A stretch of 6,203 bases of DNA, from positions 1-6,203 of the forward strand of contig JAGWZD010000125.1 in the NCBI GenBank assembly GCA_018968995.1. The letters run 5' to 3'. Positions 1 through 6,203 of this stretch are shown one piece after another. Position 1 is the stretch's first letter. Each line of letters starts with the position of its first letter. The notes beneath the pieces are model-generated. The model ran no database searches, had not been told where the DNA came from, and saw nothing but the letters and a program-made list of their open reading frames with translations. Origin of the DNA: Bdellovibrionales bacterium (lineage in GTDB: Bacteria > Bdellovibrionota > UBA1018). A program made the position numbers and the translations under genes.

Positions 1-1884
1 GAGGTAGTCCTCCTGGTTCACGGAAGCGAAGAAAACGGTTCTACGGGCGAACTCGGAGGTTTTACGGCTATAGGCAAGCCGCAGGACATCCGTATCCTTG
101 GTGAGGAAGGCTTTTAGGTGGGCTATGTCTGCCTTCCTGAAGGTGGCATCTACTTCTCCGAGCTCGACGAGCCAGTTGGTGACGCATTGGTAGACGCTAT
201 CTTTGTCTTTGGGGTCAAGCATCATGCCGTCCTTGGTGATTTCGAGTTCAGCAGGGACGAGCTCTTTGAACCACTTGGTTTTGCCCATGTATTGAGCGCC
301 TTGTAGAACTAAGATGCCTGAACCCGCCGAGCCGTTAGGGGAGAACGCCGAGGCTACAGCGGAGAGCATCCACTTCCGCATGAGCGTTTCTTTGAGTTGC
401 TTGCTCTCTTTAATAGAGTCTTTTGCTCCGGTGATGGTGTTGTAGAACGCTCCAAGCCGACTGACTCCGTCCCAGGGCTGGCTTGTAATCCACCGAACCG
501 CAGGGTTGAAGGGGTTTTCGGAGGCTATGTATTCGACAAATTCTTCGACACCGCCTCTTGGGAGTCGGTGGCTATTGGCAAGCGAGACTATGTGGATCAG
601 GGCGTTGGACTTTGCGTTGTCTTTTAGTAGTTCTAGCTCGGGGATGCGGATTTCGATGTCTTTTTTGATGAGGTTGTAGCCGACTTGGATGTTGTAGAAA
701 TCGAGCAGGGCTTTGATGTTTCCGATGGTGGCGAGTGGCCCTTTTTTTGCGGTATCTGGGAAAATTGGAGAACCCCCCGAGCCTTCCGTCATGGTTGACT
801 CAGGGGGCAGTGTGTGTGGTGCGGACGGTAAACTTGTAGGTGCGTCTGAGACTACGGCGCGCTTGCTTGGGTTGAGGCTAGTATACAGCTTACAGGTCCC
901 GGAGCAAAACTTTTGTTTGATCTTGGAGTAGCAGCCGAAGGTGTAGGCTGCTTTGCCGGAGTATGCGTCTTTGATAGCGCGAAGGTAGTCTGTTTCGTAG
1001 CGGTGGAGGATCTGATTGGTTTCGCAGAAACTTTTAAGAATCGCTTCGGTGGTCTCTTGCGGCTCGCCTCGGTGGAAGTACTCGGAGATGAGGGCGAGAG
1101 CTACTTCATGGCGCATTCCTTCTTTGTGCTTGCCTGTTTCCATTGCGGTGATGCAGGGCTTTCCCTTGAAGGTGGCGAAGGTGTTTGGTTCGGGGTTGAG
1201 GTCCATGCCGTAGGAGGCTAAGGATAGACCCACCGATCCGACTGTATTAACCGAGATGTTACCCCGAGCGTACTTAGTGCTCGGAGTAACATACTCGGAC
1301 AGACTCACCCCACATGGTGACTTGGCTAAATTTTTGATCTCGTCGATGGAGAGCGTCTCTAGTTGCTCTTTGGTCAGTTCTACTTTGTATAGGCCTGTTT
1401 TTGGGTGTTTTGAGTTGGGGAGGCGGAACTTGTGGTTAGCGGAATAGATCGAATCGTCCAGGGTGGAGATGTTGTTAGAGGCGGCGAATTGTACGATGAG
1501 GCGCTCGAAGTCTTTAGCGGTGGTCTCGCTTGGAGTGATGGGGAAGAACTCGGAGCGGATGTAAAGGTGGAAGCCTTTGGAGCCTGAGAAGTACACCTTA
1601 AAGGTGTCCTGTTCTAAGTTCAGGGCTGCGATAGCGGCGAGGCAGTCGGCACGGGCCAGGTTCAAATCCTCCGAGCTGTCGAAGTCGAGGACGTAATAGC
1701 CAAGGGCTGGGGTGTGGAAGCCCCGGTAGCCTTGGAAGGAGTCGCGGGGTTCGAGGTCAAAGAGGCAGTAGTAAGCCTCCGGGCCGCTGTAGTTTTGGAT
1801 CTTGGATAGCAGGTCTGATGCTTGGATATGGCCTTTGGATAAAGGCGAATTGAGTGAAGGTACGATGTAATTTTTCAGTGTCAT
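1..1884 (-). CDS. Phage primase fused to VapE/D5-like helicase ATPase (3' end beyond window)
   Basis: The minus frame is open for 628 codons and leaves the window at base 1. The N-terminus is an archaeo-eukaryotic-type primase domain: D67-F-D69 fits the metal-binding hhhDhD motif, S100-G-S-K-G-F-H106 fits the sGxKGxH nucleotide-binding motif, and D143-D144 followed by the F153-RLPNSKH-KTGLYK segment is typical of phage primases of this family. C318, C327 and C331 form a Cys cluster that may bind zinc. A Pro/Ser/Gly-rich linker (about 342-375) precedes a helicase-like region. This has Walker A G529-AQYMGKT536, a Walker B-like segment L-V-E574-L-G-E577-V-D, and a C-terminal stretch ending FFASVNQEDYL that matches the VapE sensor region. 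The expected role is priming and unwinding for phage replication. The start is ATG 1882-1884 with GAGAGG 11 bases upstream. It is divergent from all other genes here. The family assignment is by motif recognition, not search. Confidence 0.92.
   Translation of the reverse strand, partial: MTLKNYIVPSLNSPLSKGHIQASDLLSKIQNYSGPEAYYCLFDLEPRDSFQGYRGFHTPALGYYVLDFDSSEDLNLARADCLAAIAALNLEQDTFKVYFSGSKGFHLYIRSEFFPITPSETTAKDFERLIVQFAASNNISTLDDSIYSANHKFRLPNSKHPKTGLYKVELTKEQLETLSIDEIKNLAKSPCGVSLSEYVTPSTKYARGNISVNTVGSVGLSLASYGMDLNPEPNTFATFKGKPCITAMETGKHKEGMRHEVALALISEYFHRGEPQETTEAILKSFCETNQILHRYETDYLRAIKDAYSGKAAYTFGCYSKIKQKFCSGTCKLYTSLNPSKRAVVSDAPTSLPSAPHTLPPESTMTEGSGGSPIFPDTAKKGPLATIGNIKALLDFYNIQVGYNLIKKDIEIRIPELELLKDNAKSNALIHIVSLANSHRLPRGGVEEFVEYIASENPFNPAVRWITSQPWDGVSRLGAFYNTITGAKDSIKESKQLKETLMRKWMLSAVASAFSPNGSAGSGILVLQGAQYMGKTKWFKELVPAELEITKDGMMLDPKDKDSVYQCVTNWLVELGEVDATFRKADIAHLKAFLTKDTDVLRLAYSRKTSEFARRTVFFASVNQEDYL
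771..786. repeat. Copy 1 of a 16-nt dispersed repeat
   Basis: AACCCCCCGAGCCTTC occurs here and again at 4649-4664, exactly. A shorter exact match (AACCCCCCGAG) lies at 3882-3892, and close variants lie near 321-333 (AACCCGCCGAGCC) and 2460-2473. This copy falls in the linker-coding part of the primase gene, where it encodes Gly/Ser-rich residues. Confidence 0.6.
1251..1298. repeat. Long imperfect inverted repeat inside the primase gene
   Basis: The arms 1251-1269 and 1279-1298 pair over 18 of 19 positions, with one mismatch (C1263 against A1285, a U-G wobble in the minus-strand mRNA) and one bulged base (A1293). They enclose a 9-base loop (1270-1278). The innermost stem is CCCGAGC-type, G/C-rich and uninterrupted for six pairs. 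It encodes the segment between the primase domain and the Cys cluster. No U-run follows on either strand, so it is not a simple terminator. Possible roles are a protein-binding site, a replication element or an mRNA hairpin; the sequence does not choose between them. Confidence 0.75.
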
Positions 1885-2623: not shown

Positions 2624-2863
2624 ATGGCGGAGAAGAAGTTTAGTAAGACGATTACCGATCCAGATACGGGGCGGGAGCGTACGGTCAGGTACGGGGCGAA
2701 GGGGTATTCGATTGCTCCAGGAACAAGCCGTGGGGACTCTTATTGCGCTAGATCCTGGGGGCAGATGCTAAAGCACCCGAAGGCCGCGAAGGATCCGAAC
2801 AGCCCGCTTCGTCTAAGTCGCGCTAAGTGGAATTGTGTGGCGAAGAAGTCTGTGAAAAAATGA
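2624..2863 (+). CDS. DUF6321-like small basic phage protein (79 aa)
   Basis: The product has a conserved look. A charged N-terminus leads into T-D-P-D-T-G-R, then R-Y-G-A-K-G-Y, I-A-P-G-T-S-R-G-D-S-Y-C-A-R-S, then D-P-N-S-P and L-S-R-x-K-W-x-C, with a lysine-rich tail. I recall this series from the DUF6321 family of small phage proteins; the assignment is from memory. Function is unknown. Two cysteines (in YCARS and WNC) may pair or bind metal. An in-frame GTG at 2621 directly abuts the G-run, so ATG 2624, spaced about seven bases from AGG at 2614, is the better start. The TGA stop overlaps the next start as ATGA (2860-2863), so the two genes are translationally coupled. Confidence 0.85.
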   Translation: MAEKKFSKTITDPDTGRERTVRYGAKGYSIAPGTSRGDSYCARSWGQMLKHPKAAKDPNSPLRLSRAKWNCVAKKSVKK

Positions 2864-3153
2864 AGCTGCCCAAAATACCCCCGCGTATTAAAGTCAAGAA
2901 CAAGACGGTGTACGAGGTGGTATGGGTGGACGAATTTACCGCTCCAGACACACTTGGAGAATGTCGGTTCGATGTGAGGCAGATCGCCCTGAAAATAGGG
3001 CAGAGTGATAAGCAGGAATTTAAAAGCCTAATTCATGAGTTGCTTCATGCGATCTGCGAGGAGCGGGGGATTGAGATAAGCCACCGGGCCATATATCAGT
3101 TGGAAGAGGCGCTGTTTTACATTTTATTTCACAACGACTGGGGGAAGCGATGA
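2860..3153 (+). CDS. Small HExxH zinc-metallopeptidase-like protein (97 aa)
   Basis: Residues 59-63 are H-E-L-L-H, the zinc-binding and catalytic HExxH signature, inside a hydrophobic helix (SLIHELLHAICEE). E82 or E83 in the following helix (YQLEEALFYIL) is a candidate third ligand, as in gluzincin-like folds. The N-terminal half is predicted beta structure. The layout resembles minimal phage peptidase-like proteins related in fold to SprT or ImmA/IrrE peptidases, but it is very short and the substrate cannot be told. The frame is open upstream to 2827, but the ATGA overlap at 2860 with the preceding stop marks the real start. The next gene overlaps its stop in the same way (3150-3153). Confidence 0.82.
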   Translation: MKLPKIPPRIKVKNKTVYEVVWVDEFTAPDTLGECRFDVRQIALKIGQSDKQEFKSLIHELLHAICEERGIEISHRAIYQLEEALFYILFHNDWGKR

Positions 3154-4163: not shown

Positions 4164-4335
4164 CAAACTCCGCGAGGAGAACAGCGAGCTTCGGTATCTG
4201 CTTAAAGAGCAGTTGAAAATCAGTGGAAAGTGCTGCTACGCTAAGGCCCCGGCGTATGCACAGATTAGGCAGAAACTGATCGAAATGGGATATGGGCCAG
4301 AACTAATTACTGAAGTACTAGGAGACGAACTATGA
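4138..4335 (+). CDS. Small coiled-coil protein (about 65 aa), start uncertain
   Basis: The frame overlaps the end of the zinc-ribbon gene by about 26 bases. In-frame ATG codons lie at 4069, 4123, 4135, 4138, 4141 and 4147. GGAG at 4128-4131 favours 4138 (six bases) or 4141 (nine bases). The N-terminal half is a leucine-type coiled coil (IDKLREENSELRYLLKEQL). The C-terminal half has two cysteines (KCCYA) and a helix ending IEMGYGPELITEVLGDEL. No family is recognised. The stop overlaps the next start as ATGA (4332-4335). Confidence 0.75.
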   Translation: MMTMIQEIDKLREENSELRYLLKEQLKISGKCCYAKAPAYAQIRQKLIEMGYGPELITEVLGDEL

Positions 4336-4526
4336 ACGTGAACAAGAGAAAACCAAGATATGTATTTGCCATCAAACGCGAGGGAAAGGTCTACCGCTAT
4401 ATTGCTCGCATCAACGTGAGCTATAAGCGCATTTACCTTGGCTGCTTTAAGACCCAGGGCGAGGCCGTGAGCGCGGTGGAGAAATACTTCGCGAACCCTA
4501 AGCGTTACGAAGGACGGCTGAGATGA
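4332..4526 (+). CDS. AP2-like small DNA-binding protein (64 aa)
   Basis: The product is basic and nearly all one domain. A three-strand pattern (VFAIKREGKVYRYIARINVSY, then KRIYLGCFKT) is followed by a helix beginning G-E-A-V-S-A-V-E-K-Y. The Y-L-G-x-F-x-T-x-x-E-A-x-x-A signature is that of AP2/ERF-like DNA-binding domains, which in phages often sit beside HNH homing endonucleases. No nuclease domain is attached and no HNH gene lies next to it, so it would act alone, perhaps as a DNA-binding regulator or as a remnant of a homing endonuclease. It is coupled to both neighbours by ATGA overlaps (4332-4335 and 4523-4526). Confidence 0.8.
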   Translation: MNVNKRKPRYVFAIKREGKVYRYIARINVSYKRIYLGCFKTQGEAVSAVEKYFANPKRYEGRLR

Positions 4527-5181: not shown

Positions 5182-5258
5182 AGCTCCCTAACTCAGTGGC
5201 AGAGTGGCACGAACAGAGACCGTGCGAGAGCCAGGTTCGATTCCTGGGGGAGCTGCCA
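5182..5258 (+). tRNA. tRNA-like gene with abnormal 9-nt anticodon loop, encoded CCA
   Basis: The acceptor stem (5182-5188 with 5248-5254) has seven Watson-Crick pairs. U8-A9 is TA. The D stem (5191-5194 with 5202-5205) has four pairs around AGTGGCA. The anticodon stem (5207-5211 with 5221-5225) has five pairs. The variable loop is GAGAG. The T stem (5231-5235 with 5243-5247) has five pairs around TTCGATT. The discriminator is G and CCA is encoded (5256-5258). The anticodon loop (5212-5220) is AACAGAGAC: nine bases with no T, so U33 is missing and no anticodon can be assigned. If the closing A-C is allowed as a mismatch, a 7-base loop would put AGA in the middle, but a short variable loop does not fit a serine tRNA. 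It may be a decoy, a frameshift suppressor, a non-decoding RNA or a decayed tRNA. Confidence 0.75.
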
Positions 5259-5500: not shown

Positions 5501-5509
5501 GGAGGACTA
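5501..5509 (+). promoter_or_regulatory. Shared ribosome-binding site before two start codons
   Basis: GGAGGACTA is followed directly by ATGAATG, which holds two ATG codons four bases apart in different frames (5510 and 5514). Spacing from GGAGG is four bases to the first ATG and eight to the second, so the second is the more usual distance. GAGGACTAAT (5502-5511) is exactly complementary to 1993-2002 of the candidate small RNA. Confidence 0.7.
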
Positions 5510-6203
5510 ATGAATGGCTTGGATCTATTTTCGGGAATTGGTGGAATCGGAATTGCCCTTGAACCCTGGGTGCGAACTGTCGCCTACTGTGAGCGAGAAC
5601 CCTATGCACAGGGCGTATTACTGTCACGGATGCAATCAGGCGATATTGACAGAGCTCCAATCTGGGATGATGTCACAACACTGCGAGCCGAGATGCTCCC
5701 ACGAATCGACATCATCTTCGGAGGATTCCCTTGTCAGGACATCAGCGTTGCAGGACTTGGAAAAGGCTTGGCAGGAGAGCGAAGCGGTCTTTTCTTCGAG
5801 ATCGTCAGACTTGCCAAAGAATGTAACCCCAGATTTATTTTCTTGGAAAATGTCCCTGCCATCCGAACCCGTGGAGGGGAAAGAGTGGTCAAAGAATTGG
5901 CCAAGATCGGGTATGACTGTCGATGGACAACTCTTTCGGCCGCCTCAGTTGGAGCCTTGCACAAGCGAGAGAGGTGGTTCTTACTTGCCCACGCCAACGG
6001 CAAGCGAAGGGGGATACAACAAATCGCTTGGAGCAAACAGCAAACCACGGCCATCATTAACAACGATGGCGAGAAAGAATTTGTGGCCTACGCCAACGGC
6101 TCAGGACTTCAAGAAGAGAGGGCCGAACAGCAAACAACAAGGCCTGAGCAACAAAGTATTTATGTGGCCCACTCCGTGTGCAAGGGATTGGAAGGATTCG
6201 ATG
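5510..6203 (+). CDS. C5 cytosine DNA methyltransferase (3' end beyond window)
   Basis: The frame opens L-D-L-F-S-G-I-G-G (motif I, residues 4-12, S-adenosylmethionine binding). It continues with Y26-C-E-R-E (motif II) and G71-G-F-P-C75-Q (motif IV, with catalytic Cys75). Then come E113-N-V (motif VI, which stabilises the flipped cytosine) and G148-A-L-H-K-R-E-R-W-F (motif VIII). All are in order and intact, so the catalytic core is expected to be active. The window ends at residue 231, in the target-recognition region, before motifs IX and X. After motif VIII this frame reads L-A-H-A-N-G-K-R-R-G and then two similar segments (AYANGSG, AHSVCKG). No endonuclease gene is next to it, so it may be an orphan phage enzyme protecting DNA from host restriction. 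The target site cannot be told. A second frame overlaps it fully. Confidence 0.95.
   Translation, partial: MNGLDLFSGIGGIGIALEPWVRTVAYCEREPYAQGVLLSRMQSGDIDRAPIWDDVTTLRAEMLPRIDIIFGGFPCQDISVAGLGKGLAGERSGLFFEIVRLAKECNPRFIFLENVPAIRTRGGERVVKELAKIGYDCRWTTLSAASVGALHKRERWFLLAHANGKRRGIQQIAWSKQQTTAIINNDGEKEFVAYANGSGLQEERAEQQTTRPEQQSIYVAHSVCKGLEGFD
5514..6203 (+). CDS. Overlapping +1-frame ORF with repeated W/L-P-T-P motifs (3' end beyond window)
   Basis: In the frame one base ahead of the methyltransferase, a TGA at 5511-5513 is followed directly by ATG 5514, and 230 codons run to the window edge with no stop. It starts M-A-W-I-Y-F-R-E-L-V-E-S-E-L-P. Four cysteines follow in two close pairs (YYCHGCN near residues 35-41, HCEPRC near 56-61). 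W-P-R-S-G-M-T-V-D-G-Q-L-F comes next (about 145-157), and then L-P-T-P-T-A-S, L-W-P-T-P-T-A-Q-D and M-W-P-T-P-C-A-R-D-W-K-D. I recall protein records with this same series, including the PTPTA motifs, in phage and prophage gene sets near or within C5 methyltransferases; I could not check them. It may be a real second gene, the continuation of the methyltransferase after a frameshift, or a by-product of methyltransferase codon patterns. Confidence 0.5.
   Translation, partial: MAWIYFRELVESELPLNPGCELSPTVSENPMHRAYYCHGCNQAILTELQSGMMSQHCEPRCSHESTSSSEDSLVRTSALQDLEKAWQESEAVFSSRSSDLPKNVTPDLFSWKMSLPSEPVEGKEWSKNWPRSGMTVDGQLFRPPQLEPCTSERGGSYLPTPTASEGGYNKSLGANSKPRPSLTTMARKNLWPTPTAQDFKKRGPNSKQQGLSNKVFMWPTPCARDWKDSM

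Follow-up and report, generated by a model that had tools for sequence, protein, structure and literature searches.

Predicted dual coding of a two-subunit cytosine-C5 methyltransferase from twin start codons

Two reading frames from one start site

What, if anything, is encoded by a long open reading frame (ORF) that begins four bases inside a cytosine-C5 methyltransferase gene and overlaps it completely? The question is raised by positions 5,510 to 6,203 of contig JAGWZD010000125.1 from a Bdellovibrionales bacterium (assembly GCA_018968995.1; 2.41 Mb, 453 contigs). The stretch that we analysed (the window) is this entire contig of 6,203 bases, so that nothing can be read beyond position 6203. 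The sequence ATGAATG at 5510-5516 opens the methyltransferase frame, here called alpha, at 5510 and a +1 frame, here called beta, at 5514; the two overlap fully with a 4-base offset of their starts, and both run off the contig at 6203. Our analysis makes it highly probable that these frames are a dual-coded C5 methyltransferase of two subunits, in which alpha is the large domain and beta a predicted second subunit that would join it to form one enzyme. The features that bear on this reading are as follows.

5510..6203, plus strand: alpha frame, C5 methyltransferase large domain with motifs I-VIII readable (PF00145, phrog_363, TIGR00675); truncated by the contig end ahead of motif X
5514..6203, plus strand: beta frame (+1), 230 stop-free codons, recognised by its homologues and phrog_1008; cut by the contig end before motif IX
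5511..5513, plus strand: TGA of the +1 frame immediately 5' of the beta ATG, from the sequence
5501..5505, plus strand: GGAGG, Shine-Dalgarno-like and of putative function, from the sequence; 4 bases before the alpha ATG and 8 before the beta ATG
5720..5737, plus strand: alpha motif IV, GGFPCQ (catalytic PCQ), from the translation; invariant in an alignment of eight sequences (A2)
5846..5854, plus strand: alpha motif VI, ENV, from the translation; E113 and N114 invariant in A2
5966..5989, plus strand: alpha motif VIII, RERWFLLA, from the translation; R153 and R155 invariant in A2; in a model of the relative L008 it lies close to where the confidently folded N-terminal part ends
5985..6182, plus strand: beta modules LPTPTA (5985), WPTPTA (6084) and WPTPCA (6165), from the translation; likely target-recognition region

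Alpha matched PF00145 (1.7e-38 over residues 1-188), phrog_363 (2.8e-57) and TIGR00675 (8.7e-31), and carries motifs I, IV (PCQ), VI (ENV) and VIII in one chain, as a C5 methyltransferase should. Beta matched phrog_1008 (2.6e-19; 3.9e-21 for the beta of L008), a family labelled DNA methyltransferase whose C-terminal part holds an IX/X segment. It has 378 homologues at E≤0.001 and, among the best 120, many cover most of beta. Profile scans of beta gave no Pfam match above cut-off and no NCBIfam match, and no second piece of beta was found in its own genome at E≤0.01.

An earlier note on this DNA had described the two overlapping frames with starts 4 bases apart, the TGA before the beta ATG, the 230 open codons and repeated WPTPTA-type motifs in the +1 protein, all of which we confirmed on the sequence. 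Its estimate that a +1 frame of this length stays open with a chance of about 2 in 100,000 proved too strong. When the synonymous codons of alpha were permuted, retaining both the alpha protein and its codon usage, an average of 4.5 +1 stops was expected over codons 3-231, and 0.145% of 20,000 shuffles had none; the +2 frame of the window has 8 stops. A single sequence of this kind is suggestive, and the case has therefore to be made by its relatives.

Constraint on the +1 frame

Relatives were chosen with the alpha alignment alone, and hence not by beta. We took the best 80 viral and the best 80 bacterial-genome loci, which left 157 after removal of near-duplicates, and counted stops over the stretch that begins at the fourth aligned codon and leaves off 12 codons short of the end of alpha. 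The +1 frame was free of stops across alpha in 128 of the 157 relatives, compared with 2.1 expected from the shuffles, and the mean number of +1 stops per locus was 0.46 compared with an expected 4.72. The +2 frame, which served as internal control, had 14.4 stops per locus against 12.3 expected. The record titles of the genome loci name Pseudomonas, Acinetobacter, Akkermansia, Nitrosomonas, Chromobacterium, Citrobacter and Bradyrhizobium, among others. Regional counts for the 143 loci with an aligned start gave totals of 21 +1 stops in codons 4-35 (80.9 expected), 9 in codons 36-70 (84.5 expected), 1 in codons 71-95 (50.8 expected) and 1 in codons 96-160 (243.8 expected). Control C5 genes from the phylum of the window had 17.6 +1 stops against 16.2 expected. 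Ten of 19 controls were used: L259 (the window itself) and the repeats L265 and L266 were dropped, and L250, L252, L254, L255, L261 and L263 were excluded because the alpha profile matched none of their forward ORFs searched. One control, L264, is in fact a relative: its +1 frame has a motif-IX-like block and 5 stops against 9.5 expected.

The arrangement of the start is shared as well. From 240 loci and the window we obtained 202 distinct start sites, having left out 20 loci in which the profile match began late and others that were duplicates or too close to a contig end. In 136 of these sites a +1 stop is followed immediately by an ATG at alpha +4, and in 155 a Shine-Dalgarno-like tetramer lies within 20 bases upstream. 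One ribosome-binding site may serve both ATGs and lead to co-production of the two chains. These twin starts bear on a different explanation, that a programmed frameshift fuses the N-terminal part of alpha to the C-terminal part of beta and so produces one chain instead of two subunits. A homologue, P0029, does run from alpha sequence into beta within one chain, and single-chain forms exist. Such a fusion, however, needs neither an upstream beta start nor an open frame there, yet most of the sites have that start and the avoidance of +1 stops begins at the N-terminus; moreover, motif X is back in the alpha frame, requiring a second shift. On the evidence of start sites, stop avoidance and motif order, we regard the frameshift as unlikely.

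We then compared conservation of the two proteins, using for these frame-dominance tests, and for the codon-position tests, only loci without +1 stops. Over 68 independent pairs, identity was 0.815 for alpha and 0.555 for beta in codons 3-95, 0.814 and 0.648 in codons 96-160, and 0.441 and 0.510 from codon 161 on, where beta was higher in 50 of the 68 pairs. The better conserved frame is alpha over motifs I-VIII and beta over the variable region. Fourfold sites of alpha, in pairs of 70-97% identity, differed at 42.4% in the first 95 codons counted (n=1914), 27.9% in the next 60 (n=1142) and 13.1% in the rest (n=360), compared with 34.8% for ORFs flanking the locus (n=1901). For the two classes of more distant pairs, differences were 51.0% and 54.7% in the first part, 29.3% and 38.0% in the last part, and 60.4% and 62.5% in flanking ORFs. 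Together with the identities, these values suggest constraint on the protein sequence in the C-terminal part of beta and, in its N-terminal part, mainly on the absence of stops. The first ~95 residues of beta probably serve as an entry stretch, which has to remain open but in which many residues are tolerated. Since an internal start would not need an open stretch upstream of it, the open N-terminal part would fit initiation at the twin start.

Beta also occurs outside the overlap. In the Mycobacterium phages Perplexer (gp76, gp75) and Medusa (gp78, gp77), alpha ends after motif VIII and beta is a separate, next gene; among the phage records matched by the beta of the window, 145 of 147 are from Mycobacterium phages (three examined). 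In 80 viral loci selected by beta, alpha was always present, in the frame one base behind that of beta, and the beta match began within or near the alpha frame in 76; none of these loci had beta without alpha. That last result is what would be expected if the +1 frame were a non-coding shadow of a conserved enzyme with a favourable base composition, as are the way in which the N-terminal part of beta tracks the alpha motifs, where synonymous sites of alpha are nearly free, and the shuffle probability for the window, which is not astronomically small. A shadow fails, however, to account for the shortfall of +1 stops (0.46 seen where 4.72 are predicted) or for the higher conservation of beta than of alpha beyond codon 160. 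Nor can a frame shadow explain why mycobacteriophages have beta as a gene of its own that overlaps alpha only briefly, and we consider a shadow very improbable.

Motif IX and the predicted second subunit

In full-length relatives, motif X (DRLKAIGNGQVP, for example) accompanies motifs I-VIII in alpha, and a block of the form LNPxWVEWLMGxPxGWT lies in the +1 frame. We trained a profile of this motif-IX-like block on 46 segments of the beta-selected viral loci; some training contigs recur among the alpha-selected viral test loci, and the 77 genome loci lie outside the training set. The best match was in the +1 frame in 146 of the 157 alpha-selected loci and in the alpha frame in one (L132), and the genome loci alone gave 70 of 77 in +1. 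Of the 135 loci in which the distance from the block to motif X of alpha was measured, 108 have an identical value. Nearly all relatives therefore do not carry motifs IX and X in one chain with alpha; the window ends before this point.

Three observations support reading the block as motif IX. Single-chain and split relatives have the block followed by motif X in the same frame; a profile comparison matched the IX/X segments of these relatives to their canonical counterparts (probability 81.6%, E 1.1e-5); and both phrog_363 and phrog_1008 are matched within one chain in Gordonia phage CheeseTouch (gp88) and in prophage prophi91-4. It is thus likely, from these comparisons, that beta supplies motif IX. 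The two-subunit motif layout is assigned to the window through L008, with whose beta the beta of the window shares 65% identity over the first 208 residues; an alignment of the last 66 alpha-frame codons of the window with six relatives was too divergent to read. We suggest that beta would fold onto alpha as a small domain, that motif IX and the WPTPTA modules of beta may together shape target recognition, and that the product would be a phage or prophage modification enzyme.

Several results weigh against this reading. At least one +1 stop occurred in 29 of the 157 relatives, the profile search found the motif-IX-like block in no frame in 10 of the 157, and in L132 the block is in alpha's own frame. 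The canonical C5 profile scored the proposed IX/X segments weakly, at 1.6 to 7.8 bits among those for which a positive score was returned, and the window stops short of motif IX of beta and motif X of alpha. The beta profile matched no methyltransferase in the PDB by sequence, and an AlphaFold2 model of the L008 beta (47 sequences) had a predicted local distance difference test (pLDDT) score of 57 and a predicted template modelling score of 0.26, which was too weak, and it was not used for fold searches. Finally, the first ~95 residues of beta are weakly constrained, with the fourfold differences of alpha there at 42.4, 51.0 and 54.7% compared with the flanking 34.8, 60.4 and 62.5%, so that equal dual coding over the full length would be too strong a claim.

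Could beta instead be a separate protein, such as a nuclease inhibitor or a regulator, that merely shares the DNA of the methyltransferase? Beta has neither a Pfam match over cut-off nor a solved relative by sequence, as such a protein might. Its family is, however, fused to or adjoining alpha in other phages and carries the motif-IX-like block that is missing from the alpha frame in 156 of 157 loci, and alpha was in the expected frame in all 80 beta-selected viral loci; we judge a separate protein very unlikely. The earlier note had proposed a dual-coding gene for the enzyme and a partner, and had reasoned that a shadow would betray itself by database matches confined to shadows of methyltransferase genes, by stops appearing freely in the +1 frame of relatives and by enzyme synonymous sites that vary as usual. 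We found, to the contrary, a separate annotated beta gene in mycobacteriophages, strong stop avoidance, and constrained alpha sites where the C-terminal part of beta lies. Dual coding is supported by stop avoidance, by the constrained synonymous sites and by beta outside the overlap; a partner independent of the enzyme is not, as beta most likely carries a part that alpha lacks and accompanies alpha in 80 of 80 loci.

L132 may be a single-chain form. HNH-like segments, recognised by eye from paired Cys and HH motifs, lie after motif IX in +1 or between the IX and X blocks in L029 (2973-4217) and L085 (1539-3329), and in proteins P0026 and P0062; the alpha frame stays open across the insert in L029 and L085.

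Target recognition and relation to split enzymes

Modules of the form [WLFMI][PAWS]TP number 1 to 5 in 123 of the 126 relatives in which beta is intact and an IX block was recognised, at a median spacing of 32 residues. They fall between motifs VIII and IX, which is where the variable recognition region of C5 enzymes lies according to PMC3404938, and beta therefore probably sets target specificity. In the L008 model, alpha residues 184-223 have pLDDT below 50. The stretch of alpha between VIII and X thus looks disordered in prediction, and beta is better conserved there, which again places recognition probably in beta. In prophi91-4 (L005 2547-4121) a single polypeptide has its first repeat units in the alpha-type sense and later ones as LLPTPxASD, which looks as though copies of a duplicated repeat were read in both frames. 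More broadly, and with distinctly less assurance than for the locus itself, we favour the view that a very widespread class of phage and prophage C5 methyltransferases is a hidden two-subunit enzyme, in which twin starts would co-make catalytic and recognition subunits, the more strongly selected frame would be alpha in the earlier part of the gene and beta in the later part, and beta would be a modular specificity subunit that can gain and lose WPTPTA units.

Two-polypeptide C5 enzymes are known. In M.EcoHK31I (YGGCCR), the gene of the smaller subunit reportedly lies within that of the larger one, in a different frame. Its larger subunit has motifs I-VIII, X and a predicted target-recognition domain, and the smaller polypeptide has only motif IX, as summarized in PMC3404938. 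The relatives share this layout, with I-VIII and X in the large chain and IX in a second, predicted polypeptide, and the window probably does too; the likeness is one of motif layout. Unlike M.EcoHK31I, beta starts 4 bases after alpha so that the overlap runs from the start, with twin start codons and a wide spread; recognition is probably in beta rather than in the larger subunit; and the setting is phage or prophage. No nuclease partner was recognised among the 10 window ORFs scanned, one of which, of 64 residues, resembles part of HNH endonucleases. M.AquI (CYCGRG) is likewise divided over two polypeptides after motif VIII, with motifs IX-X in its smaller subunit (PMC3404938). The arrangement described here differs in that motif X is in the alpha frame in L008 and most relatives, rather than with IX in the second polypeptide. 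Mycobacteriophage gp76/gp75 (L002), Streptomyces phage Samy (L003), L168 and L201 do have the appearance of an M.AquI-like split. Single-chain phage enzymes that combine phrog_363 and phrog_1008, such as CheeseTouch gp88, contain the same alpha-like and beta-like parts, IX block included, but in one frame and one polypeptide; M.HhaI and M.HaeIII also differ, with the small domain within the same chain (same source). A literature search that covered few subscription papers found none on this phage overlap, and PMC8008677 and PMC10030836 concern other overlaps.

It is difficult to demonstrate selection in both frames of a long same-strand overlap. The present one turns up repeatedly, both in viral contigs and in bacterial genomes from many groups, and can for that reason serve as a model. 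If our reading is correct, it would explain why motif IX is missing from such annotated methyltransferases; many genes that annotation treats as complete cytosine methyltransferases would encode only half of an enzyme, with the other half missing from the annotation, and the annotated gene expressed alone could yield an inactive enzyme. The annotated records of the overlapping form that we examined have one frame each, alpha in L007, L267, L269, L270 and L271, and beta in L268. In the last, Pseudomonas phage phPA-G, beta is annotated as a hypothetical protein and the methyltransferase frame is unannotated, the reverse of the other examined records. Split C5 methyltransferases have been used to build targeted methylation tools (PMC3404938, PMC3439449), and a naturally split enzyme of this kind would be on offer here.

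The remaining features of the window include a primase/VapE-like helicase ORF, which suggests a phage or a satellite.

1-1884, minus strand: primase and VapE-like helicase ORF (PF05272, 2.6e-34); runs off the left end
2860-3153: small ORF with a HELLH motif seen by eye; weak Peptidase_M78 similarity below cut-off
4332-4526: the 64-residue ORF resembling part of HNH endonucleases (phrog_99, 1.4e-5)
5182-5258: tRNA-Ser (anticodon AGA), in this phage-like contig
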